DNA of 37,388 nucleotides from assembly GCA_902785885.1 (NCBI GenBank), contig CADAAS010000001.1, forward strand, positions 1-37,388. Direction: 5' to 3'. The stretch is from Pseudoselenomonas ruminantium. Lineage in GTDB: Bacteria; Bacillota; Negativicutes; Selenomonadales; Selenomonadaceae. Below are positions 2,451-37,388 of this stretch, one piece after another; the stretch's first letter is position 1, and each line of letters starts with the position of its first letter. The position numbers and the translations under genes were made by a program. A model generated the notes under the pieces. That model made no database searches. It was not told where the DNA came from and saw only the letters and a list, made by a program, of their open reading frames with translations.

Positions 2451-2471
2451 GTGCGACTGGAGGTGCTTATT

Positions 2472-6150: not shown

Positions 6151-6188
6151 TTAACCCCAATGGCATTATCTTTGGCAAAGATGCAAGT

Positions 6189-12100: not shown

Positions 12101-15100
12101 CGAACGTAGAAAGTGGGTGGATTTAACTAAGAGTGGTGCTGACCTTAATAGTGATGGTGTTGTAGATATTGCCCTGAACAATGGTGACTATACCATTACA
12201 CAGGCTGTATTTACGGCAGGGCCGGATGCAGGGAAAAATAAACAGGTAGATTACACGATAACGTTGAATCCTGTGGCGTTGAGCAACTATAAAAACATTC
12301 CTGCATCGGTTGTCCTGAATGCCAGTATCACGGATGGTGAGATTAAGGCACGTGAAGTTTTTGTCGATTTGACTACGCTGGCGAAAAATGGTCTGGCCAA
12401 GAATTATGATGCTACGGGGGCAATCTACAATAACGATAACAAGGCCTATTCCACCGATACGGCAACAGGTAACGTTCTGACGGGAAACAGCATTATAGCA
12501 TTTGACACTGTAAATACGACGAATCATACGGGCTTGGTGAAAGGCACGAATGCCAGCACGGGCGCGTATACGAATTTTGATGCAGGGTCAAATAAGTCCA
12601 TAGAATACACGGTAAATATCAGCGGGGATAAGCTCAGTAACTACATTTTCAAAGATGCCAATGGCAATGTGCTTTATGACTACTATAATGCCAACGGCCC
12701 GCAGCAGATGACGCCGCTTGTCACCAACAACAATACCATCAATGCTTTTGGTGTGGTCGTGACGGCTGACCAGATTGCCAAGCCCTATGATGCTACGGAT
12801 TATGTGGCTCCGGCAACAGCGCAAAATGCCTTGCATTTAGGCAGCGCGGTTGGCAATGATGTGGTATCCTTGCAAAATCCAGCAGGCATTAATGCCCACT
12901 ATGTCGGCGTTAATGTGGATGACAATGGGGATGGCACGCCGGATGTCCATGCCGTGAATTACACCGGCCTGGACTTGGGCGTAACCGGCTCTGCGCTGAC
13001 CAATTACCAGTTGGTAGACAGCAATGGAAACGCCCTGGGCACGGATACGAACGGCCTGCATAAATTTGCTGGGACAGGCATCATCAATCCCTACAAACTG
13101 ACTGCCGGGGATGTTACCATTAACATTGGTGACGCAAGCAAGACCTATGATGCGACCAAGGATGTACTGAAGAATGGCAGCGTTACCGACCTTGCCAACA
13201 ACTACATCACGGATCACTATGTGACCATCCCCAATACGGCGGGCGGAACGCAGGAAAATCTTGTTTTTACCAGTTATAGCGCCGAATACAATGAAGCCAA
13301 TGCTACTGCCAATCCGGTTAAGCCCGGCAATCGCGTGGACTATCGTCTGGGGCTTGGCAATTCAAACTACGATTTTTCTGGCTTGCAGGCAGCCGGCCTG
13401 GTCAATAACAACAATGAGTGGATAGCGTCTACCGGCGGCAACATTGATAAGGCTGTGGTAAAGGCCAGCCTGGCCAATAATCCGCTGGACAGCACCATTG
13501 TGAAAACCTATGATGGCAAGAACAATGTCATTCAAGACGTTACGGGCAAGGTGTCTGTAGCCGGCCTGCTTACGGCCAAGGATGGCACGGTTCTCAACGT
13601 GAATGCCATCAATGCCCAATACAAGGATAAAAATGTGGCCAGGGATGCAAATGGCAATGTGGTGGACAAGGATGTTTACTATCATGTGGAACTGTCGGGA
13701 GCGGCCAAGGATAATTACACGATTGTGGGAGCAACCGGTGCTAACTATGCCAGCCTGACGGACAACACGGGTACCCTTGCCGGCACGGGCAGGATTACGC
13801 CCAAGGAATTGACGATAGACTTTAAGCCGGCTGAACGTGGTTATAACGGCAAGGCCAATGTAAATGCTGCGGATATTCAGGTGGAAAAATTCAACGGCCT
13901 GCAGGGAAATGACAGCATTGCGCTGGACAGCACCGCAATTGGCAAGATTACAGGTACTTATGGCACAGGTGACAGTACCGCTGATTTTAAGGCCGATGGC
14001 AATGTAAAGCGCAATGGCGATGCCGTAGGCTATAAGTCGGTGAAGTATGAACATGTGGCAGATGCCTTTGCAGATTATCTTGCACGCAACCTGAATACCG
14101 ATGCAGCCAACTATACGGTGGCAAAGGATACGTTCTACAAGGAGAGTGACAACAAAGGCAAAATCAATCCCGTAGTCCTTTCGGATATCAAGGCAAAATG
14201 GCAGGGCGTGGACAAGGTATATGATGCCACGGCAAATGTGCTGAATCCCGAAAATACCATGAAACTGGTCACGAAGGACACGGCATTGACCGGCAAGGAA
14301 ATCGAATTAACCTACACCGGTGCGGCAAGTGGCGTCTATGTGGACAGCAATGGCGCAGCCCAAAAAGATGTGGGAAACCATGCCCTGAAGTATAGCGTTA
14401 CCGAAGTGAAAAAGAATCTGGGGAACTATCAGCTGGCAGATTCTGTAGCAAGCAGTGCCGAGCGTGATTGGCTCAGCACCACGGCTGCGGACAATGTTGA
14501 CGGACAAGCGGTTACGGGCGAAATAACCCCGTTGACGCTTAATGTCATCGCGCAGGATGGCTTCCATAAGATTTATGATGGAACCGAAGAGATTGCAGGC
14601 AGCGAGGCCCAGGCGAAAATCGGCTTTGGCGCAGCGCAGGCTGCTGTGGTGCAGCGGGATATCGCTGCCGGCGAAATCAGCTATGACGTGGATGCGCATT
14701 ATGTGGGCAGCGATGCCAATGTTGCCCCCGGCGTTATCCGCAACCAGAAGGATATTGCTTATAGCCTGACACTGAAAGGGAATACCAAGGGCAACTATGT
14801 CCTGCAAGGAGCGGTGAATGATATTTTTGAAGGTACCGCTAAGCTTGGGGACATTGAGCAGCGCAAGGTTTATGTGGATGCGCTGAATGTTACAGGGCTC
14901 GACAAGGCTTACGATACCACGAAGGACCTGCCGGCCGATTATTCCAGCAATGGACGGTTTGCCCTTAGGGCCGCGGATGATGCCACGGGCGTAATCCAGA
15001 ATGATGATGTCCAGTTGGATTTTGCTGCAATTAAGGGAGCATACCTGAACGGCCACGTTCAGCGTGATGCAGATGGCAAGCTTGTTCCGCAGGGAATTGC

Positions 15101-17555
15101 CTTCAATAACTTCAAGTTGACGGGAACCGGCAACCTGGGCAATTACGTTATGGGCACGGACAGCTTGTCCGGGAATGGAACCATTCGTCCTGCTACATTG
15201 ACCGTTTCCATCAAGGTGGCGCCGACCAAGGTTTATGATGGTGAAAAAGCGCTCAGCACCCCCTATAATACGAAAGATAATCTTGCCCTGTGGGGAGTTC
15301 TCGGCGACGATGATGTTAACCTGGTGGTTAACTCTGCAGGATACCAGGATGCAAATGCTGCAACCGGCAAGGAATATCGCTATGGCATCAGCATTGACAA
15401 TTTGGACTATCAGCTTGCACAAGGGGAAAATACCCCTGCAATCACGGTGTCGGGCAATGGCCAGGCTGGTGAGCTTACGGCCTATGATGGCACGATTGTG
15501 CCACGGACGCTGACTGCCAGCGTGGTCAAGGACATGGTCAAGGTTTATGATGGAACGAATGCTGGCAAGCAGGATGCAATAAAGAACATTGCCCTAAGTG
15601 CAGGTTATTTGGACAAGGACAAGGATAGCTTGGGGCTGGTGGCAAATGCCGTCTATGATGGCAGTGACGCCGCAGGCAACCGCAAGGTGACCTATACATT
15701 GTCCCTGGGCAATACGAATTACCAGTTAAGCGATACCGTGATCACTGGTGACGGGGCAATTGAAAAACGCAAGGTATGTGTAGTGGCTGATGGCCTGGTC
15801 GGCATTGACAAGGTTTATGATGGCACGTCCGCGCTTCCCAGTGGCTTTACGAATATGGGACATTTTCGGCTGGCAGGTTATGATGCTGCAACAGAAACTG
15901 GCATTGTGGCCCAGGATGCGGATATTGACTTGGACATTGGGGCGATTGCTGGTTCCTATGCCAGTGCCCATGTCAAGCGTGATGCTGCTGGGCGGCCGAT
16001 AGCGCAGGATATTGCGTTCAATAATTTCCTGCTGGCTAATGACAATGGCAATTACATTGTCGAGCCAACCAGCATTGTCGGCAGTGGCACGATTACGCCA
16101 CGGAGCTTGTCCGTAGGCATTAAGGAAGCCCCCGTTAAGGTCTATGATGGCGAAACGGCGCTTGCTTCCACCTATGCGGCCAATGACAATTTGGTTCTTG
16201 AAGGGGTGCTCGCTGGCGATAATGCCAATTTGCTGATTGACTCTGCGGCCTATGCAGATGCCAATGCTGGCAAGAACAAGGAATACAGCTACCAAATCAG
16301 CCTGGGCAATGGCGACTATGAGCTGGTGCAAGGCGCAGGCAAGCCGGCGCTTGCCGTAACGGATAATGGCCAGTCTGGCACCATTACCGCACAGGACGGC
16401 ATCATAACGCCGCGTACCCTCACGGCCAGCGTAATTCGGAACATGACCAAGGAATACGATGGAACCACGGATGGTGTTGAAAATGCTGTAGCCAATGTAA
16501 GCATGGGCAATGTTGTAAATGGCGACCGTATCGGCTTGACCGCAACCGCAGTTTACGACAATCCCAATGCAGGAAAATCCGAGGATACTGATGAACTACA
16601 AGAACATCAGGTTACTTATACTCTGAGCCTTGCCAATCCGAACTATCAGCTGGAGACCGATATCCTTACGGGGACCGGCACGATTTCCCGCAAGGGGCTT
16701 ACGATTGTGGCCACCCCGGCCAGCGTGAATATGGGTGAACCCCTGCCGCAATTTACGGGCACGGTTGAAGGGCTGGTAGCTGCAGACAGCGGCCTGGCCT
16801 CAAGCTTTGCCTTTAATACGCTGCTGGGCGTGAGCACGTCCAATGTCACGGGCGCACAGACCCAGTATCCAGTTTATGGCTGGTATCGCAACAGCTATGA
16901 GGGCGGCAATTTCGGTCTGAACTACACCTATAGTCAGGCCCCGGCCAATGAAACGGCCTTTACCGTGAACTACATCAACACGGATATGGGCAACCCGGAC
17001 CTCAAGCCGACCCCGACCCATGATGTCTATCAGCAGGTGGCCAAGGATGTCACCAGTGGCTTTGGCGATAACAACGCTGCCGCCATTCAGTATGTGGACA
17101 AGAACGGCAAGGTTCTTGCCACAGAGACGATTGGCAGCGGCACAATTGCCACCGGGGAAACCATGGATGGACTGACGGCTCAGGGAACGGACCTGGCCAA
17201 TATCGGCATTGTGGGCGGCGACATTGTCAACCTTGAAGGTGCAGATGCAGCCGGCATAGCCAATATTGAGATGCAGGACAAAGGGGCTGTGGTGAATCTG
17301 GAAGTGTATTCGCTGAACGGGGAAAAGACCTCAACAGACGGCAATCCGGCAGCGGAGATTGTCAGCACGGACAGCCGCAATGCCTTAGGCAGCATCCAGA
17401 TTGTCGATGAATCCGGTCATGTGCTGGAAGAAATCGACCAGGACAAGGCTGAGAAAGAGGAAAAGGAAGGCGAAATCGCCATTCGGTCTTCAGACGGACA
17501 GAACGAAAATGAAATCGAACTGACCGTGGAAAGCACAGGTGTAAATGTGGCCTGA
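6189..17555 (+). CDS. TPS exoprotein TpsA, main body (giant YDG-repeat adhesin)
   Basis: Rest of the exoprotein; its frame is already open from 6114, encoding the last TPS-domain segment with INPNGIIFG. GTG 6189 is only the first start-type codon after the break and has no ribosome site or signal peptide, so it is not a natural start. Order of parts: end of the TPS domain (to about 6470); a GLUG-like beta-helix section (about 6530-7340); about 25 YDG-type repeats (about 7880-16690) each opening with a TYDG- or YDAT-type motif; an MBG-like domain (GLTIVATPASVNMGEPLP onward, about 16695-16980); and an unrecognised, acidic C-terminal tail. Such proteins cross the outer membrane through TpsB and act at the cell surface, commonly in adhesion. 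The tpsB partner starts 60 bases after the stop. Strongly Asn/Thr/Gly-rich, with very little Cys. Whether any of it is made depends on reversal of the 17-bp duplication. Confidence 0.88.
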   Translation: MSDVGSFYASTREVVVTDAVNAATAGNMGALITAGNSTSGAAMDIVNMGKISADKVVLEGENIRLLNSADITAPNGVTVRADEGYIHVGSANGTGGAGYVSENLTASGAVVPVEQFTLVDSTNWNTTLGTGAAVSGNYMLSEDIDASAISGFKNVASFTGKIDGNFYAVKNITNGTSGLFTSTNNATIVNMGVKDSTFSASGGDTGAFIQTAVDTTLINVYNDNSNITDASDYSAGLVGFANGITIKSSYSTGNVSYGNSAAGVGIVGYLNGGTNNEVTDSYSTGSTFNGLISGGSNAASITFDRTFSKGTAFSDNYKKATVKNSVVIGNGQYRVAGNTGIEGDKTGTIDLTKLTGITNLVANNGTTSDSQLWSTVKDITNTGGLQHSGTKLVRPTWRIYEGQSAPILTAFTQGIKTTSYNYEYFDSNNAIDTAAAKYNNGANNGQDMTPYTYGTTLDGLVYNGDTLKIVDSSGNAATSNATTKVINDAGTVFKKAANSTSTVDASHVFYNDAGQHDATYTPPTGTQTTGTQNKLAFIWSDQKGYDLVGNNISIAPRQVTLTNNLSGQTIVKEYDGSYDAAKYVPNLFNGSSTTSSGVLPVDSGSIKVGFDPNSNPTATFVNRGGTTPDANVGADKQVLINGKLLLTDGSGNAYTGHNYVIVNSSGNPASSVSLNTTVPAAIYQRQLKVSFNGTGITKTYDKDEFVKDSNGNLRSFSQSDFTLDTTNVVSGDSVSLVVAANNSPKYVDKTTGQVQVNVGTHDVEVGGVTLTGGTESKNYTLVDASGTPVYSELGIVTGVNQQGNPIGTGTGGGTFYTTGDITLRSLGDTGYKWFKTTTSGTPNYLTATKEYDGKSDYADPGTFYVSNAGSSSSSATTGMVAGDNLDFQVTAAEFTNDSTNVNSTAVRDANTTTTPQGVRYTVTVSGSAAGNYTFDSAAAIAAGTATALSNGGTAKVMGEGNITPRTIHVTTPQGKVADKTYDGDALVKDANGNTTFDLTSGYLTYANTNTYQQLVSGDGSKIDITGLYQAGNGYADKDVNYDATNAANPVLQKDIVYTAKIMQNGVVSPNYVFNISGSNQATFNGKGTINPVQLGAITFNSVSKTYDGSAAVTNTKNTTAPQYTDDQIKINTPTGIISGETISDVFHVDSNGNLDSTGAALLANGSFTANYGDLGSNGFTLNANVKRDPQNLSNILARDVEYVGISNLMKNHNYVLPSATAASDKVYGSGTINPFLVTDKSWIKLDRNSTPITKTYDGNDSIANPMNYLNTTGNNKANATVTTPAGKVLPGLASTVAGAKYSDKHSNNNAVQNVIYTVDFVESGNYGIDSSLKNAQGQVELTLVGDGVITQKHIIATTPKDPNVTKTYDATDTISKTGNALVDISSGILSVDQSRVTNGTTAKYVANASGAAADASTTSGDKTVEYTLALLGDTYQDYLLDDGNGNTTITGAGTINKRNLVISGNTNHHKAYDGTAKVTDMPTSLSGFTFGDAQDTTVLNRDNFDITKVSGLYGSGTTDASFGTQTNVGSWDVQYSGFFTALGSKAKNYTINGTSYSSTGSTGTAYGHGKIDPATFVGQFIFKLNGGITQTYSGSADVGQFESNTTSTAKDNFRRQWVDLTNSGVDIDNDGVIDITLGNGAYTYTINSATYTTGADAGINKPVKYTITLNPASLSNYTGAPSSVVLNDTITNGEIKAREVFVDLTTLAKNGLTKNYDATGAIYNNDNKAYSTDSAVGTVLAGSSIVTFDPVDTVNHTGLVKGTNASTGAYTNFDAGGSKVINYTADISGDSVSNYIFKDKNGNVLTNGQGAALTTNNNTINAFGVVLTPNAVNKTYDGTMAVTQSMAQGALQLGIAAGGQTVALQNINGNTGVYDNPNVNPDTNGNPGIHKVTYSGLSLGDSNYKLVNASGQELNLDSSNLYTIDGTGTIDPANYSGQFVFKLKNGINQIYSGSADVGQLENNTTAADKDTERRKWVDLTKSGADLNSDGVVDIALNNGDYTITQAVFTAGPDAGKNKQVDYTITLNPVALSNYKNIPASVVLNASITDGEIKAREVFVDLTTLAKNGLAKNYDATGAIYNNDNKAYSTDTATGNVLTGNSIIAFDTVNTTNHTGLVKGTNASTGAYTNFDAGSNKSIEYTVNISGDKLSNYIFKDANGNVLYDYYNANGPQQMTPLVTNNNTINAFGVVVTADQIAKPYDATDYVAPATAQNALHLGSAVGNDVVSLQNPAGINAHYVGVNVDDNGDGTPDVHAVNYTGLDLGVTGSALTNYQLVDSNGNALGTDTNGLHKFAGTGIINPYKLTAGDVTINIGDASKTYDATKDVLKNGSVTDLANNYITDHYVTIPNTAGGTQENLVFTSYSAEYNEANATANPVKPGNRVDYRLGLGNSNYDFSGLQAAGLVNNNNEWIASTGGNIDKAVVKASLANNPLDSTIVKTYDGKNNVIQDVTGKVSVAGLLTAKDGTVLNVNAINAQYKDKNVARDANGNVVDKDVYYHVELSGAAKDNYTIVGATGANYASLTDNTGTLAGTGRITPKELTIDFKPAERGYNGKANVNAADIQVEKFNGLQGNDSIALDSTAIGKITGTYGTGDSTADFKADGNVKRNGDAVGYKSVKYEHVADAFADYLARNLNTDAANYTVAKDTFYKESDNKGKINPVVLSDIKAKWQGVDKVYDATANVLNPENTMKLVTKDTALTGKEIELTYTGAASGVYVDSNGAAQKDVGNHALKYSVTEVKKNLGNYQLADSVASSAERDWLSTTAADNVDGQAVTGEITPLTLNVIAQDGFHKIYDGTEEIAGSEAQAKIGFGAAQAAVVQRDIAAGEISYDVDAHYVGSDANVAPGVIRNQKDIAYSLTLKGNTKGNYVLQGAVNDIFEGTAKLGDIEQRKVYVDALNVTGLDKAYDTTKDLPADYSSNGRFALRAADDATGVIQNDDVQLDFAAIKGAYLNGHVQRDADGKLVPQGIAFNNFKLTGTGNLGNYVMGTDSLSGNGTIRPATLTVSIKVAPTKVYDGEKALSTPYNTKDNLALWGVLGDDDVNLVVNSAGYQDANAATGKEYRYGISIDNLDYQLAQGENTPAITVSGNGQAGELTAYDGTIVPRTLTASVVKDMVKVYDGTNAGKQDAIKNIALSAGYLDKDKDSLGLVANAVYDGSDAAGNRKVTYTLSLGNTNYQLSDTVITGDGAIEKRKVCVVADGLVGIDKVYDGTSALPSGFTNMGHFRLAGYDAATETGIVAQDADIDLDIGAIAGSYASAHVKRDAAGRPIAQDIAFNNFLLANDNGNYIVEPTSIVGSGTITPRSLSVGIKEAPVKVYDGETALASTYAANDNLVLEGVLAGDNANLLIDSAAYADANAGKNKEYSYQISLGNGDYELVQGAGKPALAVTDNGQSGTITAQDGIITPRTLTASVIRNMTKEYDGTTDGVENAVANVSMGNVVNGDRIGLTATAVYDNPNAGKSEDTDELQEHQVTYTLSLANPNYQLETDILTGTGTISRKGLTIVATPASVNMGEPLPQFTGTVEGLVAADSGLASSFAFNTLLGVSTSNVTGAQTQYPVYGWYRNSYEGGNFGLNYTYSQAPANETAFTVNYINTDMGNPDLKPTPTHDVYQQVAKDVTSGFGDNNAAAIQYVDKNGKVLATETIGSGTIATGETMDGLTAQGTDLANIGIVGGDIVNLEGADAAGIANIEMQDKGAVVNLEVYSLNGEKTSTDGNPAAEIVSTDSRNALGSIQIVDESGHVLEEIDQDKAEKEEKEGEIAIRSSDGQNENEIELTVESTGVNVA
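6530..7340 (+). other. AT-rich GLUG-like section inside tpsA
   Basis: Encodes YMLSEDIDAS, GKIDGNFYAVKNI, SGLFTSTNNATIVNMGVKDS and SAGLVGFANG, a pattern typical of GLUG-type beta-helix repeats in secreted adhesins. From about 6640 to 7320 the DNA is visibly richer in A and T than the sequence on both sides, with abrupt return to GC-richer sequence at about 7340. This suggests a separately acquired module. Judged by eye, not computed. Confidence 0.6.
10902..13080 (+). repeat. Two-copy 1,077-bp higher-order repeat in tpsA
   Basis: The block 10902-11978 and the block from 11979 to about 13080 encode the same series: GQF.FKL..GI.Q.YSGSADVGQ, then REVFVDLTTLAKNGL.KNYD and ATGAIYNNDNKAYSTD, then GLVKGTNASTGAYTNFDAG, then NNNTINAFGVV. 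The offset is 1,077 bases (359 codons), spanning about three YDG units. The middle third is nearly identical while the edges have diverged, as expected for a multi-domain duplication. Confidence 0.88.
14862..16690 (+). repeat. Two-copy 906-bp higher-order repeat in tpsA
   Basis: Blocks 14862-15767 and 15768-about 16690 encode parallel series: RKV.V.....G.DK.YD, then GIAFNNF or DIAFNNF, then GTI.PR.LSV or PATLTV, then VKVYDGE.AL and TPRTLTASV. The offset is 906 bases (302 codons) and covers about three YDG units. The identity is lower than in the 10902-13080 pair, so this looks like an older duplication. Confidence 0.82.
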
Positions 17556-17615
17556 ATGTGGTAAAATAAGCGTGATGAATGGTTTGTAATTAGGGACTGG
17601 CAGCAAGGAGACAGC

Positions 17616-19280
17616 ATGAAAACAATAGCTAAAGCGCAAATTGCAGCAGGATTTTTCGCCGCATGTTTCAATTTGGGCGGGGGAGCGGTCATGGCAGCTC
17701 CCTCACTGTCACAGCCCGGACAGGATATACAAAAAGAACTTCCCAAACCGGAGGCGGAGGTGGTGGATAATGCACCGGACAAGCCCAGGCAGGCGCCGCA
17801 GGTGGAATTTACCATCACCAACTTCCGTCTGGAAGCCCCGGACCTTTATCTGGACAAGGGGGAACTGACCAAGATCCTGCAGGACGGCATGGGGGAGAAA
17901 AAGACCATGATGCAGCTCAATGCTACGCTCACGGCGATCACCCGCTACTGCCGGCAGCATGGCTATCCGGCGGCGGCAGCCTATGTGCCTGCACAGGAAA
18001 GCAGTGACGGCATGATTACCATCAAGGTTATCCCAGGCCGTTACGGCGAAATCAAAATCGATAACCGCAGCCGCTTGAAGGAACGGATTGCCAAAGGTTT
18101 TGTGAACAGCTTGAAATCCGGCGACATCATTCGTACGGGCAAGCTCGAAACCACCCTGTATTCCATTTCCGATGTGAGCGGTACCAAGGCCGTTGGTGTA
18201 CTGAGTCCCGGCAAGGAATTCGGCACCAGTGACCTGACTGTGCGCATTGAACGGGGCAAGGGCGAGAATACCGTGCTTTATGTGGAAAACTATGGCAGCA
18301 AGGACACAGGCCAGTATCGCTATGGCCTGCAGGAAAACCTCTACGATGTCAGCGGCAACGGCGACAAGATTTCCGTGGGTGTGCTGCTGTCCAATCGGAA
18401 TATGCACAACTACTATGCCAACTATGAAACCATTGTGGGGCGCGGCGGTGCAACGCTGGGCTTCGGTTTCAGCCGCATGGATTATCAGACCGGCCTGCAG
18501 GGCATGGACATGAATGGCACCGCGGAGACCTTCAGCGTGTTTGGCCATCGCTCCCTGTATCACTTGACCAACAGCGGCCTGACCTTCAAATATGGTTATG
18601 ACCATCGCCGGTTGAAGGATAAGTATTCGCTATTCCCGAACCTGAATCAGGAAAAGCGTTCGCATGGCTTCTATGTCGGACTGGATGGCTTCGAACGGCG
18701 CAATGGCGTTATCTTCAATTATGGGGTAAAGCTCACCAGCGGTACGATAAGCCTGGATTCCGGACTCGGTGACCGCAACAACATCGAAGGTCGTTTCACC
18801 AAAGGCGAGTTCAATGTGTCGGCGGTGCAGCGGCTGGGCAATCGTGCGGATGTGCTGGTGAAAGCCAGCGGGCAGCTGGCCAGCCGCAACCTGGACGGCT
18901 CCGAGCGCATGTATCTGGGCGGAGCAAGCGGCGTGCGTGCTTACCCGCAGGGGGAAGGCTCCGGCGATGTCGGGCTGATGGGCACGATTGAACCGCGCTT
19001 TTACACCAGCGTACCCGGCCTGGTCTTCAGCACCTATTTTGATATCGGCCATGTGAGCTATTTCAAGGATGGACGCACCAGCCGGAACTATACCAGCGGC
19101 ACAGGTGTGGACTCCACAGGCATGACCCTCAAAGGCTATGGCGTAGCCCTTTCCTACACCAAGCCTAACGACTGGTTTGCCCGCCTCGACTATGCCCGCC
19201 GCATAGGCAGCGACCCGAACCTCAGCGAAAAGGCCAAAGCCAAGGGCAGATTGTGGTTTATGTTGGGCAAAATATGGTAA
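17616..19280 (+). CDS. TPS outer-membrane transporter TpsB (ShlB/FhaC family)
   Basis: 554 residues, normal for the family. A signal peptide is visible (cut near VMA|APS, about residue 27). A Pro-rich linker is followed by a POTRA region (about 62-150: VEFTITNFRLEAPDLYL, a GYPAAAAYVPAQ segment, MITIKVIPGRYGEIKI) and a second POTRA-like segment to about 220, then a beta-barrel rich in alternating aromatic and glycine residues. The conserved loop motif VRGY/F of this family appears as VRAYPQGEG (Val440-Tyr443), and the chain ends in an aromatic residue (KIW), typical for assembly by BamA. It moves the TpsA partner across the outer membrane. AAGGAG lies 6 bases before ATG 17616. It starts 60 bases after tpsA with no terminator, so the two are one operon; tpsB itself is intact although tpsA is broken. 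Confidence 0.93.
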   Translation: MKTIAKAQIAAGFFAACFNLGGGAVMAAPSLSQPGQDIQKELPKPEAEVVDNAPDKPRQAPQVEFTITNFRLEAPDLYLDKGELTKILQDGMGEKKTMMQLNATLTAITRYCRQHGYPAAAAYVPAQESSDGMITIKVIPGRYGEIKIDNRSRLKERIAKGFVNSLKSGDIIRTGKLETTLYSISDVSGTKAVGVLSPGKEFGTSDLTVRIERGKGENTVLYVENYGSKDTGQYRYGLQENLYDVSGNGDKISVGVLLSNRNMHNYYANYETIVGRGGATLGFGFSRMDYQTGLQGMDMNGTAETFSVFGHRSLYHLTNSGLTFKYGYDHRRLKDKYSLFPNLNQEKRSHGFYVGLDGFERRNGVIFNYGVKLTSGTISLDSGLGDRNNIEGRFTKGEFNVSAVQRLGNRADVLVKASGQLASRNLDGSERMYLGGASGVRAYPQGEGSGDVGLMGTIEPRFYTSVPGLVFSTYFDIGHVSYFKDGRTSRNYTSGTGVDSTGMTLKGYGVALSYTKPNDWFARLDYARRIGSDPNLSEKAKAKGRLWFMLGKIW

Positions 19281-29412: not shown

Positions 29413-30729
29413 ATGGCAATGGTAGTAAAGAACAACATGTCGGCAATCTCGACCCTGAACACCCTGAACAAGAACTCCAGCGCACTGTCCAAGAGCCTGG
29501 AAAAAGTATCTTCTGGTATGAAGATCAACAGCGCAGCTGATGACGCTTCCGGTTACGCTATATCCGAACGTATGCGCGTTCAGATTCGCTCTCTGGATCA
29601 GGCTAATGCCAACACCCAGGCCGGCAACAGCATGATGAAAGTTGCTGAAGGTGCTGTAAGTTCCACCGTTGATATCCTCAAGACTCTGAAAGAGAAAGTT
29701 ATCAACGCAGCCAACGATACCAATACGGACTCTGACCGTCAGACCATCCAGAAGGAACTCAACCAGAGCATCGACCAGATTGATGACAACGCCAATGTAA
29801 CATTCAATGGCAAGTATCTGGTAGATGGTTCCAAGAATACCAAAGGTACTGCTACCTGCACCCATCTGACCAATCAGTCTTTGGCTACGGCTACGGATGG
29901 TAGTACTGCTTTCACGGCGATGAGCAATCGTAATGGTGAAAGTTTGGAGATTATCGGCACCGATAAGATTACGATGTCGTATACTCATCAGGGCACGACT
30001 TTTAGCTGTACGCTGGATGCTTCAGCTGCTACCAACCTTAGTACTATGGTGACCAAGGTGACAGGGGTACCTGGTGCTCATGGATCTTTTGCCTTTACTG
30101 GTGCGACTTCTGTTATTGGTACTAATGCTGGCGGTAATACGATTTATACCGCAGATGGTACGTCTTCTTTGACCTTGGCAGCAGGTGCTAATGGGTTGGC
30201 TGGTCAGATTAGTGGCTTCAGCATCCGTGTTACGGACAACGAAGGCAACGTGAAGAAATCCGCTATCGCTGCATTGGATAACTTTAGCGAAATGATTAAA
30301 GCACAGAATGAGTCTGCGGACAATGCACTGACCTTCCAGGTTGGGGCAAAAGCAAACCAGAGCATTAAAGTTGGTCTTGGTGATATGCGCTCTGAAGCTC
30401 TTGGCCTTAAAGGCTCCGATGGTACAAAGCTCAACATTTCCACGCAGGAAAAAGCGAATGCTGCAATCAGCGTTTTGGACAATGCAGTGTCCAAGGCTCT
30501 TGACCAGCAGACCACTATCGGTTCCATCGAGTCCCGGTTGAGCTACACGAGCACGAACTTGACCACGGCTTCCGAAAACGTTCAGGCTTCCGAGTCCACG
30601 ATTCGTGACGCTGACATGGCGAAAGAAATGACGAACTACACGAAGAACAACGTTCTTCTGCAGGCCGCTCAGTCCATGCTGGCACAGGCTAACCAGAGCA
30701 GCAGCTCCGTACTCAGCCTCCTCCAGTAA
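29413..30729 (+). CDS. hag: Flagellin (probable main filament protein)
   Basis: 438 residues. MAMVVKNNMSAISTLNTLN start, MKINSAADDASGYAISERM, VINAANDTNTDSDR, then C-terminal YTSTNLTTASENVQ, TIRDADMAKEM and SMLAQANQSSSSVLSLLQ. It is the most typical flagellin here, with well-adapted codons at both ends, its own sigma-28-like promoter, a long leader with CsrA-type sites and a strong terminator, and sits at the end of the late flagellar operon as hag does in B. subtilis. Two cysteines in the central domain (Cys149, Cys199) are uncommon in flagellins. The variable centre (about 140-250) is AT-richer and Ser/Thr-rich, a likely site of O-glycosylation by the transferases encoded next door; that is inference. 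Confidence 0.97.
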   Translation: MAMVVKNNMSAISTLNTLNKNSSALSKSLEKVSSGMKINSAADDASGYAISERMRVQIRSLDQANANTQAGNSMMKVAEGAVSSTVDILKTLKEKVINAANDTNTDSDRQTIQKELNQSIDQIDDNANVTFNGKYLVDGSKNTKGTATCTHLTNQSLATATDGSTAFTAMSNRNGESLEIIGTDKITMSYTHQGTTFSCTLDASAATNLSTMVTKVTGVPGAHGSFAFTGATSVIGTNAGGNTIYTADGTSSLTLAAGANGLAGQISGFSIRVTDNEGNVKKSAIAALDNFSEMIKAQNESADNALTFQVGAKANQSIKVGLGDMRSEALGLKGSDGTKLNISTQEKANAAISVLDNAVSKALDQQTTIGSIESRLSYTSTNLTTASENVQASESTIRDADMAKEMTNYTKNNVLLQAAQSMLAQANQSSSSVLSLLQ

Positions 30730-30761: not shown

Positions 30762-30790
30762 AAAACCCTCCCCTATGGGGAGGGTTTTTT
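30762..30790 (+). terminator. Rho-independent terminator after main flagellin
   Basis: AAACCCTCCCC (30763-30773) pairs perfectly with GGGGAGGGTTT (30777-30787) across a three-base loop and runs into T's to 30790. It is the strongest terminator in the window. Confidence 0.95.
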
Positions 30791-30834
30791 GTATGCCATG
30801 TCGAAGTGATACATATTCGTGAGGAGGAATGATT

Positions 30835-31818
30835 ATGATTTTATCAGCACTGTGCATAGTGAAAAATGAAGCAAATAATTTGCCGCGCTGGCTGAAAGGT
30901 ATGAAACAAGTAGCTGACGAAATCATCGTTACCGATACCGGTTCTACGGATAACAGCCGAGAGATAGTAAGGGCAGCCGGGGCAAGACTTTATGACTACA
31001 AGTGGCAGAATGATTTTGCTGCTGCACGCAATTTTACCCTGGCACAAGCAACGGGGGATATGATCCTATTCCTGGATGCGGATGAATACTATCCATTGGA
31101 GGTATTGAAGAAATTACGCCTGCGTTTAGGCGGTTTATTTCGCAATCCACAGGTAGCCGGTGTTTTAGCTCCGCGGATAAATATTGATGAACAAGCCGGA
31201 AACAGATTTTTGGATGTATCACCTCAGTTGCGCATTTTTCGTCGTGGCTTGCAATATCAAGGAAAAATCCATGAAAACATCATAATTCCTCATGGCATGC
31301 AGCTCGTTCAAGATGATAATTTATTTTTCTATCACACAGGATATGGTGAAGGGCTGATAAAGGCTAAATTGCAGCGTAATCTAGCTATGCTGCAGGCTAA
31401 AATGACCGATAAAGCTTATATAAAACAGCCCATAGATTACCGTTACCTGTTGGATTGTTATTATGGTTTAGGGGATTTGGCTGCAGCTTTTGCAGTAAGT
31501 GGTATTTGCCTTTCCTATCCTAGACAACTGGCGCATGAACGGAATTATATTTATAAAATAAGAGCCAAGACGGCAATTTTTTTGGGTAAACCCCGTTCAG
31601 AAGTAGAATTGATTCTGTCTGAAGCCAAAGCGCAGGGGGATTGGCTGTACTTTACCTTGCTGCATGCGGCATATCTTTATGAGCAGGGCGATTTAGCAGG
31701 AGCACTGTCCTTAGCGAGGACTGGCTTGGAGGTTGCGCCGGGGTTGGATATGCGAAATCCGGCCTATGAATTTCTGCCGGCGATGCAGAAAATTTTGGCA
31801 GAAGGGAATAGCAGGTGA
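30835..31818 (+). CDS. Glycosyltransferase family 2 protein (1 of 3)
   Basis: 327 residues. GT-A type family-2 transferase: LSALCIVKNEANNLPRWL, DTGSTDNSRE, NDFAAARNF and the metal/sugar-nucleotide site DAD (Asp81-Ala-Asp83, in LFLDADEYY). The C-terminal half (from about 190) is helical and TPR-like (DLAAAFAVSGICLSYP, then EQGDLAGALSLARTGLEV). ATG 30835 is chosen; GAGGAGG (30821-30827) is 7 bases upstream and too close to ATG 30829. It lies right after the flagellin terminator with only 38 bases between, so it may depend on read-through. No membrane segment is seen, so it probably acts in the cytoplasm. Flagellin is a plausible acceptor because of position; sugar and acceptor are unknown. Confidence 0.9.
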   Translation: MILSALCIVKNEANNLPRWLKGMKQVADEIIVTDTGSTDNSREIVRAAGARLYDYKWQNDFAAARNFTLAQATGDMILFLDADEYYPLEVLKKLRLRLGGLFRNPQVAGVLAPRINIDEQAGNRFLDVSPQLRIFRRGLQYQGKIHENIIIPHGMQLVQDDNLFFYHTGYGEGLIKAKLQRNLAMLQAKMTDKAYIKQPIDYRYLLDCYYGLGDLAAAFAVSGICLSYPRQLAHERNYIYKIRAKTAIFLGKPRSEVELILSEAKAQGDWLYFTLLHAAYLYEQGDLAGALSLARTGLEVAPGLDMRNPAYEFLPAMQKILAEGNSR

Positions 31819-31824
31819 AGAATT

Positions 31825-33159
31825 ATGGATAGGGTGAAAATATCTGCTTGTTATATTGCGAAAAATGAAGGGCACAATATTGAACAATCACTGCAATCCA
31901 TAAAGGATATTGCAGATGAAATCATTTTTGTAGATACCGGCTCTACAGATGATACCATAGTCCGAGCAGAAAAATATGGAGCAAAAGTATATTCCTTCCC
32001 TTGGCAGGATGATTTTTCTGCGCCGCGTAATTTTGCCTTGTCCAAAGCAAGTGGTGATTGGATTATATTTATTGATGCCGATGAATATTTCCCTTTGGAT
32101 TGCTGCGAGCAGCTGAAATCGATTATTGCGGAACAATTCCGGCAAGGGTATGATGGTATGTTGCTTATCCGTCGTTATGATATCGATGTGGATAACCAAA
32201 ATGAGGTATTGGCGGATACGTTGGTAAGCAGAGTGTATGCCAGCAAGAAAAATCGCCGCTATCATGGTCTTGTCCATGAGGAATTATTAGATGATGGTAA
32301 GCCAATACAGAAACAGATAATTATTTCCCCAGTGCAGGTAAAACTCTTGCATACAGGCTACCGTGCCGGAATGACGGAAGAGAAAGCCCGGCGCAATCTG
32401 GCCTTGCTGGAAAAGGAACTGGCGGCAGGTACAGACCCAGGACGTCTCTATATGTATTTGGCAGATGTCTATCTCGGATTGGGTGATAATGATAAGGCAT
32501 GGCATTATGCCTGGCTGGATGTCAGACAAGGACGCAGGCCGACGACATATGCCAGTCGCTCTTATCGAATCCTGTTGGAACTATCCTTGAAAGGGAAAAC
32601 AGATTTGCGGGGACGCCTTGAGTTGTGTCGCTTGGCTGTTCAGGATTATCCGGAAAATCCGGAATTTCGTGCAGATTTAGCGGAATGCCTGGGAACGTTA
32701 GGAAAGTATCGGGAAGCTGCTGACATGATGGCAGCGGCCATTCAGGCCTATGAGCATTATCAGGGGATAGAGCCAATGCTTATGACAGCAGAAGTGGCAA
32801 AAATTGCAGCTGACCGGGAAAAAATCTTTGCGGCCCTGGCAGAAACTCAAGGTCTTTTACTTACTGCACTATGTGCGATGAGCATTGAGGAATATGGGGA
32901 TACAGAAACAAAAAAAATTTTGGCGCCTGCCTATCGTCAACTACTGGATTATTATCACGAAGGAAAACTGCCGACAGCTGATTGGTCGGAGTTATCATCC
33001 TGTTATGTGGAGTGCGTAAAAGCTCTCTTGGATAATCATGGTGAAGCCTGGTTAGAAAAAATACTGAATATGCTTAATCATTTTTCTGCCGATACCCGGC
33101 AGCAGATATTGTCGCTGCTGGATAGTCAAATTCAGCGAGAGGAGGGCACTGCTCCATGA
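31825..33159 (+). CDS. Glycosyltransferase family 2 protein with TPR-like tail (2 of 3)
   Basis: 444 residues. Same N-terminal enzyme core as its neighbours: ISACYIAKNEGHNIEQSL, VDTGSTDDT, DDFSAPRNFAL and DAD (Asp84-Ala-Asp86, in FIDADEYFP). About 200-440 is a helical repeat region (YLADVYLGLGDNDKAWHYA, then ADLAECLGTLGKYREAADMM), TPR-like, which may hold a protein acceptor. AGGTGA (31813-31818) overlaps the stop of the previous gene and is 6 bases before ATG 31825, so the two are coupled. It is the longest of the three. Its function in glycosylation of flagellin or another protein is inferred from context. Confidence 0.9.
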   Translation: MDRVKISACYIAKNEGHNIEQSLQSIKDIADEIIFVDTGSTDDTIVRAEKYGAKVYSFPWQDDFSAPRNFALSKASGDWIIFIDADEYFPLDCCEQLKSIIAEQFRQGYDGMLLIRRYDIDVDNQNEVLADTLVSRVYASKKNRRYHGLVHEELLDDGKPIQKQIIISPVQVKLLHTGYRAGMTEEKARRNLALLEKELAAGTDPGRLYMYLADVYLGLGDNDKAWHYAWLDVRQGRRPTTYASRSYRILLELSLKGKTDLRGRLELCRLAVQDYPENPEFRADLAECLGTLGKYREAADMMAAAIQAYEHYQGIEPMLMTAEVAKIAADREKIFAALAETQGLLLTALCAMSIEEYGDTETKKILAPAYRQLLDYYHEGKLPTADWSELSSCYVECVKALLDNHGEAWLEKILNMLNHFSADTRQQILSLLDSQIQREEGTAP

Positions 33160-34271
33160 AAATAAAAATTTCTGCCTGTACAATCGTAAAAAATGAAGAA
33201 AAAAATATAGAACGCTGGCTGGAGAGCGTGCGTTCCTTTGCAGATGAAATTCTCATCACCGACACCGGTTCTACAGACGATACCATAGCTTTGGCAAAAG
33301 CAGGCGGAGCTAAAGTGAATTATTTTTCCTGGTGTAACGATTTTGCTGCCGCCAAAAACTTTGCCATCGAGCAAGCGCATGGTGATTGGATTGTGATGCT
33401 AGATGCCGATGAATATTTTGACAAATGTTCGCAAAAGAAACTGCGGCAAATCATCAGCAAATTCCATAAACAAAAACAAGTGGCGGGGCTAATAACCCCA
33501 TTTTTGAATATTGACGTCAATCAAGATAACAAGATTTTATCCAAGGCGTGGCAGATGCGGATTTTTCGCCGGGAGCCTAACTTGCGATTCGTAGGCAAGG
33601 TACACGAAACATTATTGAATATAAATGCTCAGGGAGATAAGCGGGACTTTCTCGTAACGGAGGATTTGCAGTTCATTCATACTGGGTACAGTGTTGACAA
33701 TATTGTAGAAAAATATCGACGAAATTTGCAGATCCTGCAGGCAGAAATAAAAAAACAAGGGGGCGTGACTCCACGCCAGTTTGCCTATTTGCAGGATTGC
33801 TATATGGGGATAAAAGACTATCAAAATGCTATACGTTATGGAAGACTGGCTTTGGAGCACAGGGCAGAATCCGGCTTGGTAGGGAACGAGCGCAAGGCAG
33901 TGTGTCAGCTGCTAGATGCCATCTGGCAGGTAAATCGAAAAGACTATGCGCGAGAACTGGAAGCAGCACTGACCCAATTCCCAAATTTTGCCGAATTATG
34001 GGTTTTGCGCGGCAGATTTCTGTTGGGAAAGAAGAACCTTGTTGCTGCTGAACAGGCCTTTCGAGAGGCATTGCGTTTGCGCAATAAAAAAGTAACGTCT
34101 CTTGCAGAAATATCCAATACAGCGATTGAGTCCTTGTTGCCGGAGATAGAAGCATCTTTAGCTTATATAGAGCGATATAAACCTTATTACGAAGCTATGG
34201 CAGGGCATGATTATGAACGTGCGGCTCGTGTAGTGGTGCAAATGATGCGCGAGCTTAAATGTCAATTGTAA
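33156..34271 (+). CDS. Glycosyltransferase family 2 protein (3 of 3)
   Basis: 371 residues. ISACTIVKNEEKNIERWLESV, TDTGSTDDT, NDFAAAKNFAIEQAHGDW and DAD (Asp83-Ala-Asp85, in MLDADEYF) give the same family-2 core; a helical TPR-like end follows (about 215-371), including YMGIKDYQNAIRYGRLALE. It begins inside the previous stop (ATGA, 33156-33159), so translation is coupled. The three genes are tandem paralogues, similar at the N-terminus and divergent in the tail. Its 3' end overlaps by 17 bases (34255-34271) with the oppositely oriented heptosyltransferase gene. Confidence 0.9.
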   Translation: MKIKISACTIVKNEEKNIERWLESVRSFADEILITDTGSTDDTIALAKAGGAKVNYFSWCNDFAAAKNFAIEQAHGDWIVMLDADEYFDKCSQKKLRQIISKFHKQKQVAGLITPFLNIDVNQDNKILSKAWQMRIFRREPNLRFVGKVHETLLNINAQGDKRDFLVTEDLQFIHTGYSVDNIVEKYRRNLQILQAEIKKQGGVTPRQFAYLQDCYMGIKDYQNAIRYGRLALEHRAESGLVGNERKAVCQLLDAIWQVNRKDYARELEAALTQFPNFAELWVLRGRFLLGKKNLVAAEQAFREALRLRNKKVTSLAEISNTAIESLLPEIEASLAYIERYKPYYEAMAGHDYERAARVVVQMMRELKCQL

Positions 34272-35484
34272 TCCCCATAGCGGCAAAGGCAGATGCCAGT
34301 ACCATATCCGGATGAATAGAGCGGGAACATTCCAGTTCGCGTTTAGTGCCTTGATGGTAAGGACAGATGACATCATCACCCATAAAGGTAACCCGGCTGT
34401 CGTTAAAACAACCATGACAGGTTAAACGATTGATGACACGATACGGGGTGGAAAATTCGCAATAATCTTCGGAGAAACCGCTGATTAATACAACAGGGCA
34501 GCCAACGGCATAAGCAATCCAGGATAAACCACTGCCCAGCCCGATAAAACATTTCGCATGGGTAAGGATTTTTGCCCGTTCTAGTAGAGGGATATCGCCA
34601 GTCATATCTTCGGCATTTGCCGGGATATGGGTTTCGTAATCACCTGCCCGGGACAGCGTATGCCGGTCAATACAGATAACCCGCAGTCCCGCGTTTTGCA
34701 GAATGTTTACCACGATTTCCCATCCCTGGGGATAGTGCCACCCTTTTCGTGGCGTAGAAGCTTCCACACCGATGCAGACATATGGTTCGGGAAAAGGACG
34801 AGGGCAGGGCATGGGGGAAGATAGAATAGGAGGATTCGCATAGAGTCCGGTTATGGCACCGGCGATTTTCCACAGGGGATAGGTGCGCCCTTCTACGGGA
34901 GTGCCGTAAGGACCATCAATCCAGGTGCCAAGGTAATAGGCTGCGTAGCAGTCTTCCGGCAAACCGTCAACGATGGGGATATCCGGATAGAGCGCGGCAA
35001 CCAGTTCACGCAGATAATCGGCCACCCAGCAAACAACCTTGGCGTTAAATTTATCCCGGTAAAGCCGGGCATAGGGGAGAAAAGCCAATGTATCACCAAT
35101 GGCGCTGCTGCTGCAATGGAAAAGCACGGTTTGTCCGGCAGGATTGAAGGTATGGGAAAAAATCAGTTGCTTGTCTTTATATACATCAATTTGATAGTTT
35201 ATCGCATATTTTTCCTGCGAAATGAGCCGTACAGCAGAAATTTCTTCATTGAAGAAGACTTGCTTGCTAAGAGCATCGCTAATGTGTATCTGAAAATTTC
35301 CCGGGGGAACATCCAGCCGCAAACCACAATTAAAATCAATGGCTAAGCCGTTTACATTGGTAAGCCCCCGCAAGGTCCCGCATTTTTCCTGCATTTGGGC
35401 GAAGAGCTCAAGCTGGATACGGGCTATTTTTTTGTTTTCCTGTGCCGAAGGCAGACTGCAGCGGAAATATTGTAGAGGGTACAT
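34255..35484 (-). CDS. BAHT-type protein O-heptosyltransferase
   Basis: 409 residues. It resembles the autotransporter strand-loop-strand O-heptosyltransferases (Aah, TibC): a beta-rich N-terminal part (about 1-115), then a GT-B fold with the nucleotide-sugar motif AIGDTLAF (Gly130-Asp131), GVEASTPRKGWHYPQGW, and FIGLGSGLSWIAYAVGCPVV. A four-cysteine cluster, Cys356-x2-Cys359-x14-Cys374-x11-Cys386, matches the iron-binding finger described for TibC. Known relatives attach heptose to Ser or Thr of secreted autotransporter adhesins. Start ATG 35484, with AGGAGC upstream (9-base spacing). Likely clients here are flagellin or the giant TPS adhesin; both carry long Ser/Thr-rich beta regions. Convergent with the three glycosyltransferase genes; the 3' ends overlap and there is no terminator. 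Confidence 0.88.
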   Translation of the reverse strand: MYPLQYFRCSLPSAQENKKIARIQLELFAQMQEKCGTLRGLTNVNGLAIDFNCGLRLDVPPGNFQIHISDALSKQVFFNEEISAVRLISQEKYAINYQIDVYKDKQLIFSHTFNPAGQTVLFHCSSSAIGDTLAFLPYARLYRDKFNAKVVCWVADYLRELVAALYPDIPIVDGLPEDCYAAYYLGTWIDGPYGTPVEGRTYPLWKIAGAITGLYANPPILSSPMPCPRPFPEPYVCIGVEASTPRKGWHYPQGWEIVVNILQNAGLRVICIDRHTLSRAGDYETHIPANAEDMTGDIPLLERAKILTHAKCFIGLGSGLSWIAYAVGCPVVLISGFSEDYCEFSTPYRVINRLTCHGCFNDSRVTFMGDDVICPYHQGTKRELECSRSIHPDMVLASAFAAMGITIDI

Positions 35485-35634
35485 AGAAGATACGCTCCTT
35501 TTTGTAATCGAATAATCTTTGTATCTATTCGGCGATGATGATGCAATTTCCTTGTCGATTTTTACAGGGAAACGAGGAAATATAGCGAATTATTTATATT
35601 ATTAGGAAAAGAAGAATAAAGGAGATGTGTAATC
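35485..35634. promoter_or_regulatory. Divergent intergenic region
   Basis: AT-rich gap of 150 bases between the heptosyltransferase (leftward) and the TPR gene (rightward). It must hold promoters for both directions, but no convincing -35/-10 pairs were found. AAAGGAGATG at 35618-35627 is the ribosome site of the rightward gene. Confidence 0.4.
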
Positions 35635-36465
35635 ATGGGAAAATCCAATCGCAAGATGAACAAAAAAATAAATCGTCAGCAGGTTAAGGCAGAAAATAAG
35701 GAGCTGACAGTGCTGCAGAATAAACTTACGCAACAATACGAAGCCATGGATTATGATGGTGCTTTGGAAACGATAGCAGAACTGATGGGGAAAAAGTGCT
35801 ATGAACCGGAAATTATGTTCAAAGCCGCGCAAATCTTCTTTTTGCAGGGAGATTATGAACGGGCTGCCAGTTGGGTGACCAATACATTACAATACAATTC
35901 GGGGCATGTAGATGCGCGTTTGTTATTGGCCAGGATTTGCTTGCTGGAAGATCGTACGGATGATGCGATGGCTATTTATGACATTATTCTTCAGCGTGGG
36001 GCAGATTCACTCACGCCGGAACAACAGGAAGATATTAAAGAGGCCACGGATTATATTGTCCGCACGGATGGGCAATGGTTGCAGGAAAACTATCCGTTGG
36101 TGGCAAAGCTGGTGATGCCTGCCGACAATGATGAAAATGTGATGAAGCCTCAAGTAATGCCGGAAGCGGTGACATCGCCGGCTGTAGAAACCGATCAGGT
36201 AATGACGGATATTATGCAAACGCCTGTATCCTTAACGGAAAAAATTGCTTTGCTTAATGCTTATGCAGGTGGCTGCTTTGTCGGCAATGATTATGAAGGT
36301 GCCGCGAAATTTTTGCAAAAGGCGGAGGAATTGGATGCGCATGATAATATGACCTTGCGCAATTTGGCGATGTTGGCCAAGGAAATGGGGCAGCAGGAGA
36401 AAGCGCTGGCCTATGCCGGGCGCATGAACGGCACGGATTTTGTACTGCTTAGGCAGTTGTTGTAA
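35635..36465 (+). CDS. TPR-repeat protein of unknown role
   Basis: 276 residues. A basic N-terminus (KSNRKMNKKINRQQVKAENK) is followed by TPR-like helix pairs: YEAMDYDGALETIAELM, AAQIFFLQGDYERAASWV, ARICLLEDRTDDAMAIYD, then a Glu/Val-rich linker (about 165-200) and further pairs GNDYEGAAKFLQKAEELD and LAKEMGQQEKALAYAGRM. No enzyme domain. The next gene, starting 27 bases on, is a TPR/O-GlcNAc-transferase-like enzyme, so it may assist in glycosylation or recognise acceptor proteins. Preceded by AAAGGAG about 10 bases from ATG 35635. Function not known. Confidence 0.8.
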   Translation: MGKSNRKMNKKINRQQVKAENKELTVLQNKLTQQYEAMDYDGALETIAELMGKKCYEPEIMFKAAQIFFLQGDYERAASWVTNTLQYNSGHVDARLLLARICLLEDRTDDAMAIYDIILQRGADSLTPEQQEDIKEATDYIVRTDGQWLQENYPLVAKLVMPADNDENVMKPQVMPEAVTSPAVETDQVMTDIMQTPVSLTEKIALLNAYAGGCFVGNDYEGAAKFLQKAEELDAHDNMTLRNLAMLAKEMGQQEKALAYAGRMNGTDFVLLRQLL

Positions 36466-36492
36466 AAATTTTTACAAGAGGGTATGGCAGCT

Positions 36493-37388
36493 ATGGAAAA
36501 GGTCAGAGGAACGAACTTGCATAATTTAGTCCGCAGTTTTCGAGAGGCCGTGTGTAATGCCGAATGGCAATCTGCCCTGAATTTTGCACGGCAGATAATG
36601 CCGCTCGCGCCACGTAATCGTGACGTGTGGGAAAGCATGGCCGGCCTTTTCCTGGATAATAATTGTATTGTCGAGGGGCAAAAGGCCATAGAGTTTTTGG
36701 AGAAACATTTTTCGCCGCAGCCTGGCTGGTTGATGCTGAAAACAAAACTTGCTCATTTGCAGGATGATTGGGATATGGCCATTTCACTGGGTGAAGAAGC
36801 TTTGGCGGCAAATTTGTCCAATGCGCAAAAAGCTGTAGTATATAATTGTTTGGCGCAAATTTATACCGAAATAAATGAGGAAGAAAAGGCTGTTTCTTAT
36901 CATAAAGCGGCAAGTATGCTGCCGGATAATCCCGGGGCATTGATATCTTATAGCAATTATCTTTTTTATATGCATTACTGTGAATATGGGCAGACGGAGT
37001 TTGTAGAGGCGGCAAAGCTTTATAACACTGCATTTGCATATGTTGTCCCCTATCAGCATAAGCAGCATAAGCAGCATAAAAAAATCCGTATTGGCTATCT
37101 GTCGGCAGATTTTCATGCCTCAGTAACAGCTGTATTTTGTTATCCGTTTTTCAAGGCCTATGATAGAAGGAATTTTGAAGTATATGTTTATGCCAAAGGG
37201 GAAGCGGACAATATCAGCCGTGATTTAGCACAATATGTGGATGTTTGGCGCAATATAGATGGCCTGGAGCCTGAGAATGCAGCGGCTATGATCTATGCTG
37301 ATGGCATAGACATACTCTTTGATCCCTCGGGGCATAATAAAAATAACTGTCTGCCCATTTTTGCTTATAAGCCTGCACCCGTTCAGAT
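36493..37388 (+). CDS. TPR / O-GlcNAc-transferase-like glycosyltransferase, 5' part (cut by window end)
   Basis: The frame is open to the window end; 298 residues are seen. Residues 1-about 185 are helical TPR-like repeats (SFREAVCNAEWQSALNFAR, then AQIYTEINEEEKAVSYHKAA). From about 196 begins a family-41 (OGT) catalytic region: KKIRIGYLSADFH (His208), FEVYVYAKGEADNIS, DGIDILFDPSGHN (His281) and FAYKPAPVQ, in the order seen in bacterial OGT-like enzymes. ATG 36493 is preferred; an in-frame ATG at 36484 lies too close to AGAGGG (36476-36482). It would transfer a sugar from a UDP-sugar to Ser or Thr of proteins. The region between the TPR and catalytic parts holds a 9-base repeat (QHK x3). Bacterial OGT-like genes often sit in flagellar glycosylation regions. 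Confidence 0.88.
   Translation, partial: MEKVRGTNLHNLVRSFREAVCNAEWQSALNFARQIMPLAPRNRDVWESMAGLFLDNNCIVEGQKAIEFLEKHFSPQPGWLMLKTKLAHLQDDWDMAISLGEEALAANLSNAQKAVVYNCLAQIYTEINEEEKAVSYHKAASMLPDNPGALISYSNYLFYMHYCEYGQTEFVEAAKLYNTAFAYVVPYQHKQHKQHKKIRIGYLSADFHASVTAVFCYPFFKAYDRRNFEVYVYAKGEADNISRDLAQYVDVWRNIDGLEPENAAAMIYADGIDILFDPSGHNKNNCLPIFAYKPAPVQ
37054..37080 (+). repeat. Three 9-base tandem repeats in OGT-like gene
   Basis: CAGCATAAG at 37054-37062 and 37063-37071, then CAGCATAAA at 37072-37080. They encode QHKQHKQHK between the TPR region and the catalytic domain. Since 9 is a multiple of 3, copy-number change would alter linker length and not the frame. Confidence 0.9.

Follow-up and report, generated by a model that had tools for sequence, protein, structure and literature searches.

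We analysed a 37,388-base window (one whole contig of a Pseudoselenomonas ruminantium assembly of 2.68 Mb and 266 contigs, 86% complete) in which a gene at 34255-35484, on the minus strand, encodes a 409-residue predicted O-heptosyltransferase of the BAHT family. The gene lies in an island of glycosyltransferase genes behind the main flagellin gene, fliC (29413-30729, plus strand). Relatives of this gene that form one class, class B, are enriched near flagellin genes in the Selenomonadaceae. Our preferred model, to which we assign a probability of roughly 0.55, is that class B BAHTs were recruited in this family to islands downstream of fliC, where they heptosylate flagellin, directly or on its glycans, before export. 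ADP-heptose from the HldE/HldD pathway would be used in the cytoplasm, and the BAHT would place heptose on serines or threonines of flagellin, or on a sugar already set by the GmaR-like GT2 and OGT-like GT41 enzymes of the island. The heptosylated flagellin would then be exported and assembled into the filament. For the window BAHT itself, the model's statements on activity, donor sugar and acceptor, and on the order in which sugars are added, are predictions.

Class B BAHT genes and flagellin

We surveyed 151 Selenomonadaceae genomes with profile searches. Among the best matches listed, the BAHT profile TIGR04414 exceeded its cut-off in at least 65 genomes. A quick tree of 93 BAHT sequences, with long branches, contained a split (SH-aLRT 100) between 30 class A and 63 class B sequences. 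The window BAHT fell in class B, beside that of genome G016 (59% identity).

We determined how far BAHT genes lie from flagellin genes in 24 well-assembled class B genomes, chosen from 56 and including 4 of the 16 g13 genomes; together they carry 31 class B clusters. Distances were taken to the best flagellin matches listed and are therefore upper bounds. Seven clusters were within 10 kb of a flagellin gene, 14 within 20 kb and 16 within 30 kb, compared to 1.0, 1.9 and 2.7 expected when clusters are treated as independent; the genomes, however, are related, and one array is common to five g1 genomes. The control, the HldE heptose kinase, was within 30 kb of flagellin in 0 of the 24 genomes. 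Of the five class A clusters that these genomes also contain, one was near flagellin (G066:C6), and its BAHT was 4 bases from a repeat protein.

Some of these genes are joined to fliC by a run of genes on one strand, measured in seven genomes. In G109, G122, G114, G104 and G094, genes on the fliC strand continued unbroken (gaps of at most 154 bases) for 15-18 kb to the first BAHT. A gap-free run of this kind covered about 3 kb in G002, and the run in G021 contained a 1398-base gap. The fliC end was taken from the gene in G109; in the other six it was approximated by the position where the Pfam match begins. The G109 run consists of GT2, GT2, GT41, GT41 and TPR genes and, farther on, GT9, GT2, BAHT, GT2, GT9, GT8 and BAHT genes. 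Elsewhere the two genes are closer. Regions L049, L068, L083 and L087 each have a BAHT and a flagellin gene no more than 2 kb apart. By genome, the close pairs are those of G020 and G073 (within 1.7 kb), that of G113, with the BAHT 296 bases from the gene for a 1087-residue flagellin, and that of G050, where flagellin follows about 0.5 kb behind the BAHT.

Several observations count against flagellin as the target. Fifteen of the 31 class B clusters had no flagellin within 30 kb on the same contig, some of which may be cut off from it by contig ends. The clusters of G028 (four), G146 (two), G108 (two), G055, G099 and G020:C13, however, do weigh against the model. The misses include all four clusters of G028, the clusters of three of the four g13 genomes in the set, and G099, a member of the window's own genus. 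The BAHT gene of the window, like that of its closest relative, G016, runs on the other strand from the glycosyltransferase genes around it and is thus not in their operon. In g13 genomes, repetitive RTX-like proteins lie next to the class B arrays of L067, L074 and L075, so class B does not serve flagellin only. Since the window's genome is 86% complete, an autotransporter target could also be missing from the assembly. The flagellin glycans of the related bacterium Selenomonas sputigena are reportedly GlcNAc-linked as well as rhamnose-linked, with no heptose named. That S. sputigena flagellin is heavily O-glycosylated (Rath 2018, cited in PMC7142665 and PMC13339959) speaks for the flagellin model, but its glycans are described as rhamnose-linked, and the available text of the two citing papers does not mention heptose.

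The link also has a phylogenetic limit. Outside the Selenomonadaceae, 21 genomes of Negativicutes encode a protein related to the window BAHT (E 1e-40); inspection by eye found no listed flagellin within 50 kb of it in any of them, and seven of the 21 had no flagellin match at all. A linkage general to the class Negativicutes was thus not found, and the association is a feature of the Selenomonadaceae, not of the BAHT family at large. Together, the gene neighbourhoods argue well for flagellin as the target in the clade and moderately for the window gene, which stands alone on the opposite strand.

Family, class and donor of the window BAHT

The window protein scored 350.4 bits against TIGR04414, for which the curated cut-off is 200, and also matched PF21129 (TibC_1st) and PF01075. 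It matched TibC chains 4rap and 4rb4 with E values of 2-3e-63, and the named relatives found for it belong to Selenomonas and to an uncultured Veillonellaceae bacterium. The predicted structure (pLDDT 93) aligned to TibC with a TM score of 0.83 over 376 columns and has the TibC fold, an N-terminal beta-barrel followed by a GT-B domain with thumb and finger. The next structural matches, lipopolysaccharide (LPS) heptosyltransferase II and a Veillonella GT9 protein, were far weaker.

As described for TibC in the available text of PMC4358343, Asp110 is the catalytic base, Arg286, Trp305, Thr226 and Lys230 bind the sugar, Pro300 sets stereoselectivity and Cys339, 342, 358 and 370 form an iron finger. 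D131, K247, R303 and W322 of the window BAHT are identical to their TibC counterparts, while the Thr226 place is occupied by S243 and the Pro300 place by G317. C356, C359, C374 and C386 align with the four finger cysteines, in agreement with an earlier note on this stretch, which described a BAHT with a four-cysteine finger and left the minus strand unstated. Nearly all catalytic, sugar-binding and finger residues are kept across 95 aligned Selenomonadaceae BAHTs; the exceptions are Glu for Asp (six rows), His for Trp (one), a row from L083 in which neither Lys nor Arg is kept, and two rows that are incomplete. The assignment of 34255-35484 to the BAHT family is firm on sequence and modelled fold; the active site and metal finger appear intact, and the enzyme is presumably active.

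The two classes differ in the company they keep. TIGR04415 strand-loop-strand repeats occur in 16 of the 151 genomes: 12 of the 19 with class A, compared to 4 of the 132 without it (p 4e-10). In the initial listing, 3 of 46 class-B-only genomes had such repeats, and one of these genomes, G126, belongs to class A as judged by the repeat gene beside its BAHT; it was moved to class A for the count of 12 of 19 only and stayed in class B for the comparison with two-partner secretion (TPS) domains described below. An adhesin-like gene lies within 200 bases of the BAHT in 5 of 10 class A regions (L056, L057, L059, L060 and L064). Thus, class A goes with strand-loop-strand autotransporters, and class B, including the window BAHT, does not. 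The absence of a classical autotransporter, reported for the window, extends to the 86%-complete genome as far as TIGR04415 is concerned, with no match at E ≤ 1; the PF03797 type was not searched. The window BAHT therefore shares with TibC and AAH the TIGR04414 profile, the catalytic Asp, the Arg, Trp and Lys, the four-cysteine finger and the predicted fold, but differs in belonging to a separate Selenomonadaceae clade, in having no strand-loop-strand partner in its genome and in its linkage with flagellin islands.

A search for heptose nucleotide synthesis, as the earlier note proposed, found genes for making the presumed donor, so the idea is not refuted in the way that the note foresaw for a genome lacking ADP-heptose synthesis. 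Contig C6 of the same genome carries an HldE-type kinase, an HldE-type adenylyltransferase and HldD, all above their cut-offs, together with two LPS-type heptosyltransferases below theirs. The best GmhA-like match, on contig C67, scored 104.7 bits (cut-off 209), and the GmhA step is probably present. Across the family, the HldE-kinase model matched all 151 genomes, 133 of them above the cut-off. In the window's genome, one LPS-heptose cluster on contig C6 contains two HldE-type kinase genes (L078:9922-10899 and 13626-14657), the second just below the cut-off (322 against 345 bits).

Possible other acceptors and donors

The first alternative, that the true target of the BAHT is a different surface protein with a beta-solenoid or repeats (a TPS adhesin, an RTX-like protein or an undetected autotransporter) and that its place behind fliC is incidental, we consider unlikely. 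It fits the known BAHTs, which in the available text of PMC4358343 act on beta-helix passengers, and it fits a BAHT on the strand opposite to the glycosyltransferase genes. It also has candidates. The window encodes a TPS-type adhesin (3788 residues, with YDG domains) and a ShlB-type partner at 5734-19280, 17-28 kb from the BAHT, and in g13 genomes large proteins rich in Ser, Thr, Gly and Asn are encoded 0.5-1.3 kb away from class B arrays (L067, L074 and L075). Against it are the enrichment of class B near flagellin, the lack of strand-loop-strand repeats in the window's genome and the distribution of TPS domains. These are found in 98 of the 151 genomes, in 35 of 57 with class B and 63 of 94 without (p 0.49), and in only 2 of the 16 g13 class B genomes, the other 14 having none. 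On the lack of co-occurrence, tested for the BAHT and not for GT41, we rejected the TPS adhesin as a general partner of class B. The co-occurrence data thus argue against TPS proteins as the general target and are not decisive for the window. Of the two acceptors named in the earlier note, flagellin is the one favoured by the neighbourhoods in relatives, and a TPS protein as general target is not upheld.

In the window, the TPS secretion domain (5734-6150, 32.4 bits, just below the cut-off) and the adhesin body (6189-17555) do not share a reading frame and are separated by 38 bases; as these frames read, the adhesin gene is broken or mis-assembled.

The g13 arrays, each with at least three BAHTs, adjoin proteins (L067:14108-19900, L074:1-6870 and L075:4987-8031) that consist of about 50% Ser, Thr, Asn, Gly and Asp and contain almost no cysteine. 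One has RTX-like repeats by eye, and in L074 a radical SAM gene separates the array from the large protein. Here class B BAHTs may have a second function. A broader version of the flagellin model is that the ring-shaped BAHT enzyme became a dedicated flagellin heptosyltransferase, with flagellin a new class of acceptor, and that in the g13 arrays of three or more copies it serves RTX-like surface proteins or giant flagellins. We give this version slightly less than an even chance.

Another reading, also improbable in our estimate, is that the BAHT extends a flagellin glycan instead of starting on Ser or Thr, or takes its sugar from some donor other than ADP-heptose. Other glycosyltransferases are numerous in the island, with GT9 genes in relatives (L036, L080 and L083), and the place of the stereoselective Pro300 is Gly in the window and mostly Ser or Gly across class B. 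Yet the donor-binding and catalytic residues match those of protein-modifying BAHTs except for the Thr226 place, which is Ser, and AAH, with Ser at the Pro300 place, still uses ADP-heptose (available text of PMC4358343). The difference between the classes at the sugar-binding site was considered as a sign of a new donor and rejected: the only donor residue that separates them is this Thr-to-Ser change (Ser in 56 of 64 class B rows, Thr in 26 of 31 class A rows), which is too little.

GT9 is the Pfam family of heptosyltransferases, and GT9 genes that do not score as BAHT recur in the flagellin islands of relatives (L036:4965-6245, L036:9590-10948, L080:12344-13582 and L083:5797-7116), which again hints that flagellin may carry heptose or similar sugars. 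Beside the closest BAHT relative, in G016, are octopine-dehydrogenase-like, ATP-grasp and DegT aminotransferase genes (L080:1282-7449), which suggests that the glycan of that island bears an amino sugar or amino acid.

That the window BAHT is an orphan or a recent arrival inserted in a variable island with no functional partner is very improbable: its presence in the family is patchy (at least 65 of 151 genomes above the cut-off), its nearest relatives in the tree are from three other genera and from one genome of its own genus at 59% identity, and its GC content is 0.486, against 0.434-0.461 in the neighbouring glycosyltransferase and TPR genes, but its frame is full-length, its active-site and finger residues are kept, and class B genes are repeatedly placed near flagellins.

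The flagellin island and its meaning

All genes of the earlier note were recovered at their positions, and profiles identify the island behind fliC as three GT2 genes, the BAHT, a TPR gene and a GT41 gene. FliC (438 residues; PF00669 E 5.5e-37, PF00700 E 4.3e-23) is the presumed acceptor, with 51 Ser and Thr among the 208 residues of its variable centre. Downstream, a GC-rich hairpin followed by a run of T (30763-30790, plus strand) is a probable intrinsic terminator, noticed only by direct reading of the intergenic sequence and without an entry in the pattern scan. Since it lies between fliC and the first GT2 gene, the glycosyltransferase genes do not merely extend the fliC transcript, and they probably depend on read-through or a separate promoter. 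A promoter scan showed no excess (17 matches compared to 15.8 in shuffled sequences).

The GT2 genes, all on the plus strand, encode proteins of 329 (a, 30829-31818, PF00535 E 6.2e-18), 444 (b, 31825-33159, E 6.4e-21) and 371 residues (c, 33156-34271, E 7.3e-18), and genes b and c overlap by 4 bases. The TPR-like tails ascribed to all three hold for GT2b (TPR_19, 27.7 bits against a cut-off of 25); the match in GT2c is weak and below the cut-off, and GT2a has none. Among solved structures, GT2c is closest to GmaR of Listeria (PDB 22ao, E 4.6e-30), followed by SunS (E 5.9e-23). GmaR adds O-GlcNAc to Listeria flagellin. Although GT2c matches both, the GT2 proteins score only 65-96 bits against the SunS model TIGR04195, far below its cut-off of 350, and we rejected SunS-type peptide S-glycosylation.

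The 3′ end of the BAHT gene overlaps the 3′ end of the GT2c gene, and its 5′ side faces the divergent TPR gene across 150 bases (35485-35634), with ribosome-binding-like AAGGAG or AAAGGAG before each start. The TPR protein (35635-36465, plus strand, 276 residues, PF14559 E 4.3e-11) has relatives in the islands of other genomes. It is followed by the OGT-like enzyme, a GT41 protein with a TPR start (36484-37388, plus strand, PF13844 E 4.3e-13) that is cut by the contig end and covers profile positions 66-184 of 543. This fragment is nearest to plant SPINDLY (7y4i, E 3.8e-14) and to a bacterial TPR protein (5djs). SPINDLY is an O-fucosyltransferase.

Glycosyltransferase genes beside flagellin also recur in relatives. 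A cassette of fliC, GT2, GT2, GT41 and TPR genes, with slight changes of order, is found in genomes with and without a BAHT, including g1 genomes that lack class B (for example G043, G060 and G093); it was not found in regions L095 and L096 (from G139 and G137). Thus, the island is general and the BAHT is its accessory.

A longer flagellar region precedes the island. From about 20 kb, Pfam profiles identify FlgM, FlgN, FlgK, a flagellin-type gene in the FlgL place, DUF6470, FliW and FlaG, and FliD, FliS and a weak FliT match precede the main flagellin. Ten flagellin N-domain matches were among those listed for the genome, three of them in the window (647-1057, 4263-4670 and 29425-29835), which also has an additional flagellin C-terminus at 74-529. 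An AAA-ATPase-like gene with a PD-(D/E)XK domain (2451-4055) sits between flagellin genes, and its relatives (698 and 635 bits) share regions with flagellin-like genes in L057 (2674-4248) and L105.

Heptose on flagellin is not new, since FliC of enterotoxigenic Escherichia coli (ETEC) H10407 was reported to carry 14 heptosylated Ser and Thr residues by BEMAP mass spectrometry (Boysen 2016, PMC5000012). That case resembles our model in having heptose on flagellin Ser and Thr but differs in that the available text names neither a dedicated enzyme nor an island downstream of fliC. According to the available text of PMC6090259, an H10407 hldE mutant lacks flagella and also their transcription, and the causes are not separated. 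Among the papers listed by our searches on BAHTs, heptosyltransferases and heptosylation with flagellin and on Negativicutes flagellin glycosyltransferases, no title or abstract opening describes a BAHT in a flagellin island.

If class B BAHTs do modify flagellin, the acceptor range of the family would grow from secreted beta-helix adhesins to flagellin, and there would be a genetic handle on flagellin heptose, for which the available text on ETEC names no enzyme (PMC5000012). The system would also test how a ring-shaped beta-helix enzyme handles a mostly helical protein exported through the flagellar route, and heptose would join the sugars expected on the flagella of Selenomonas.

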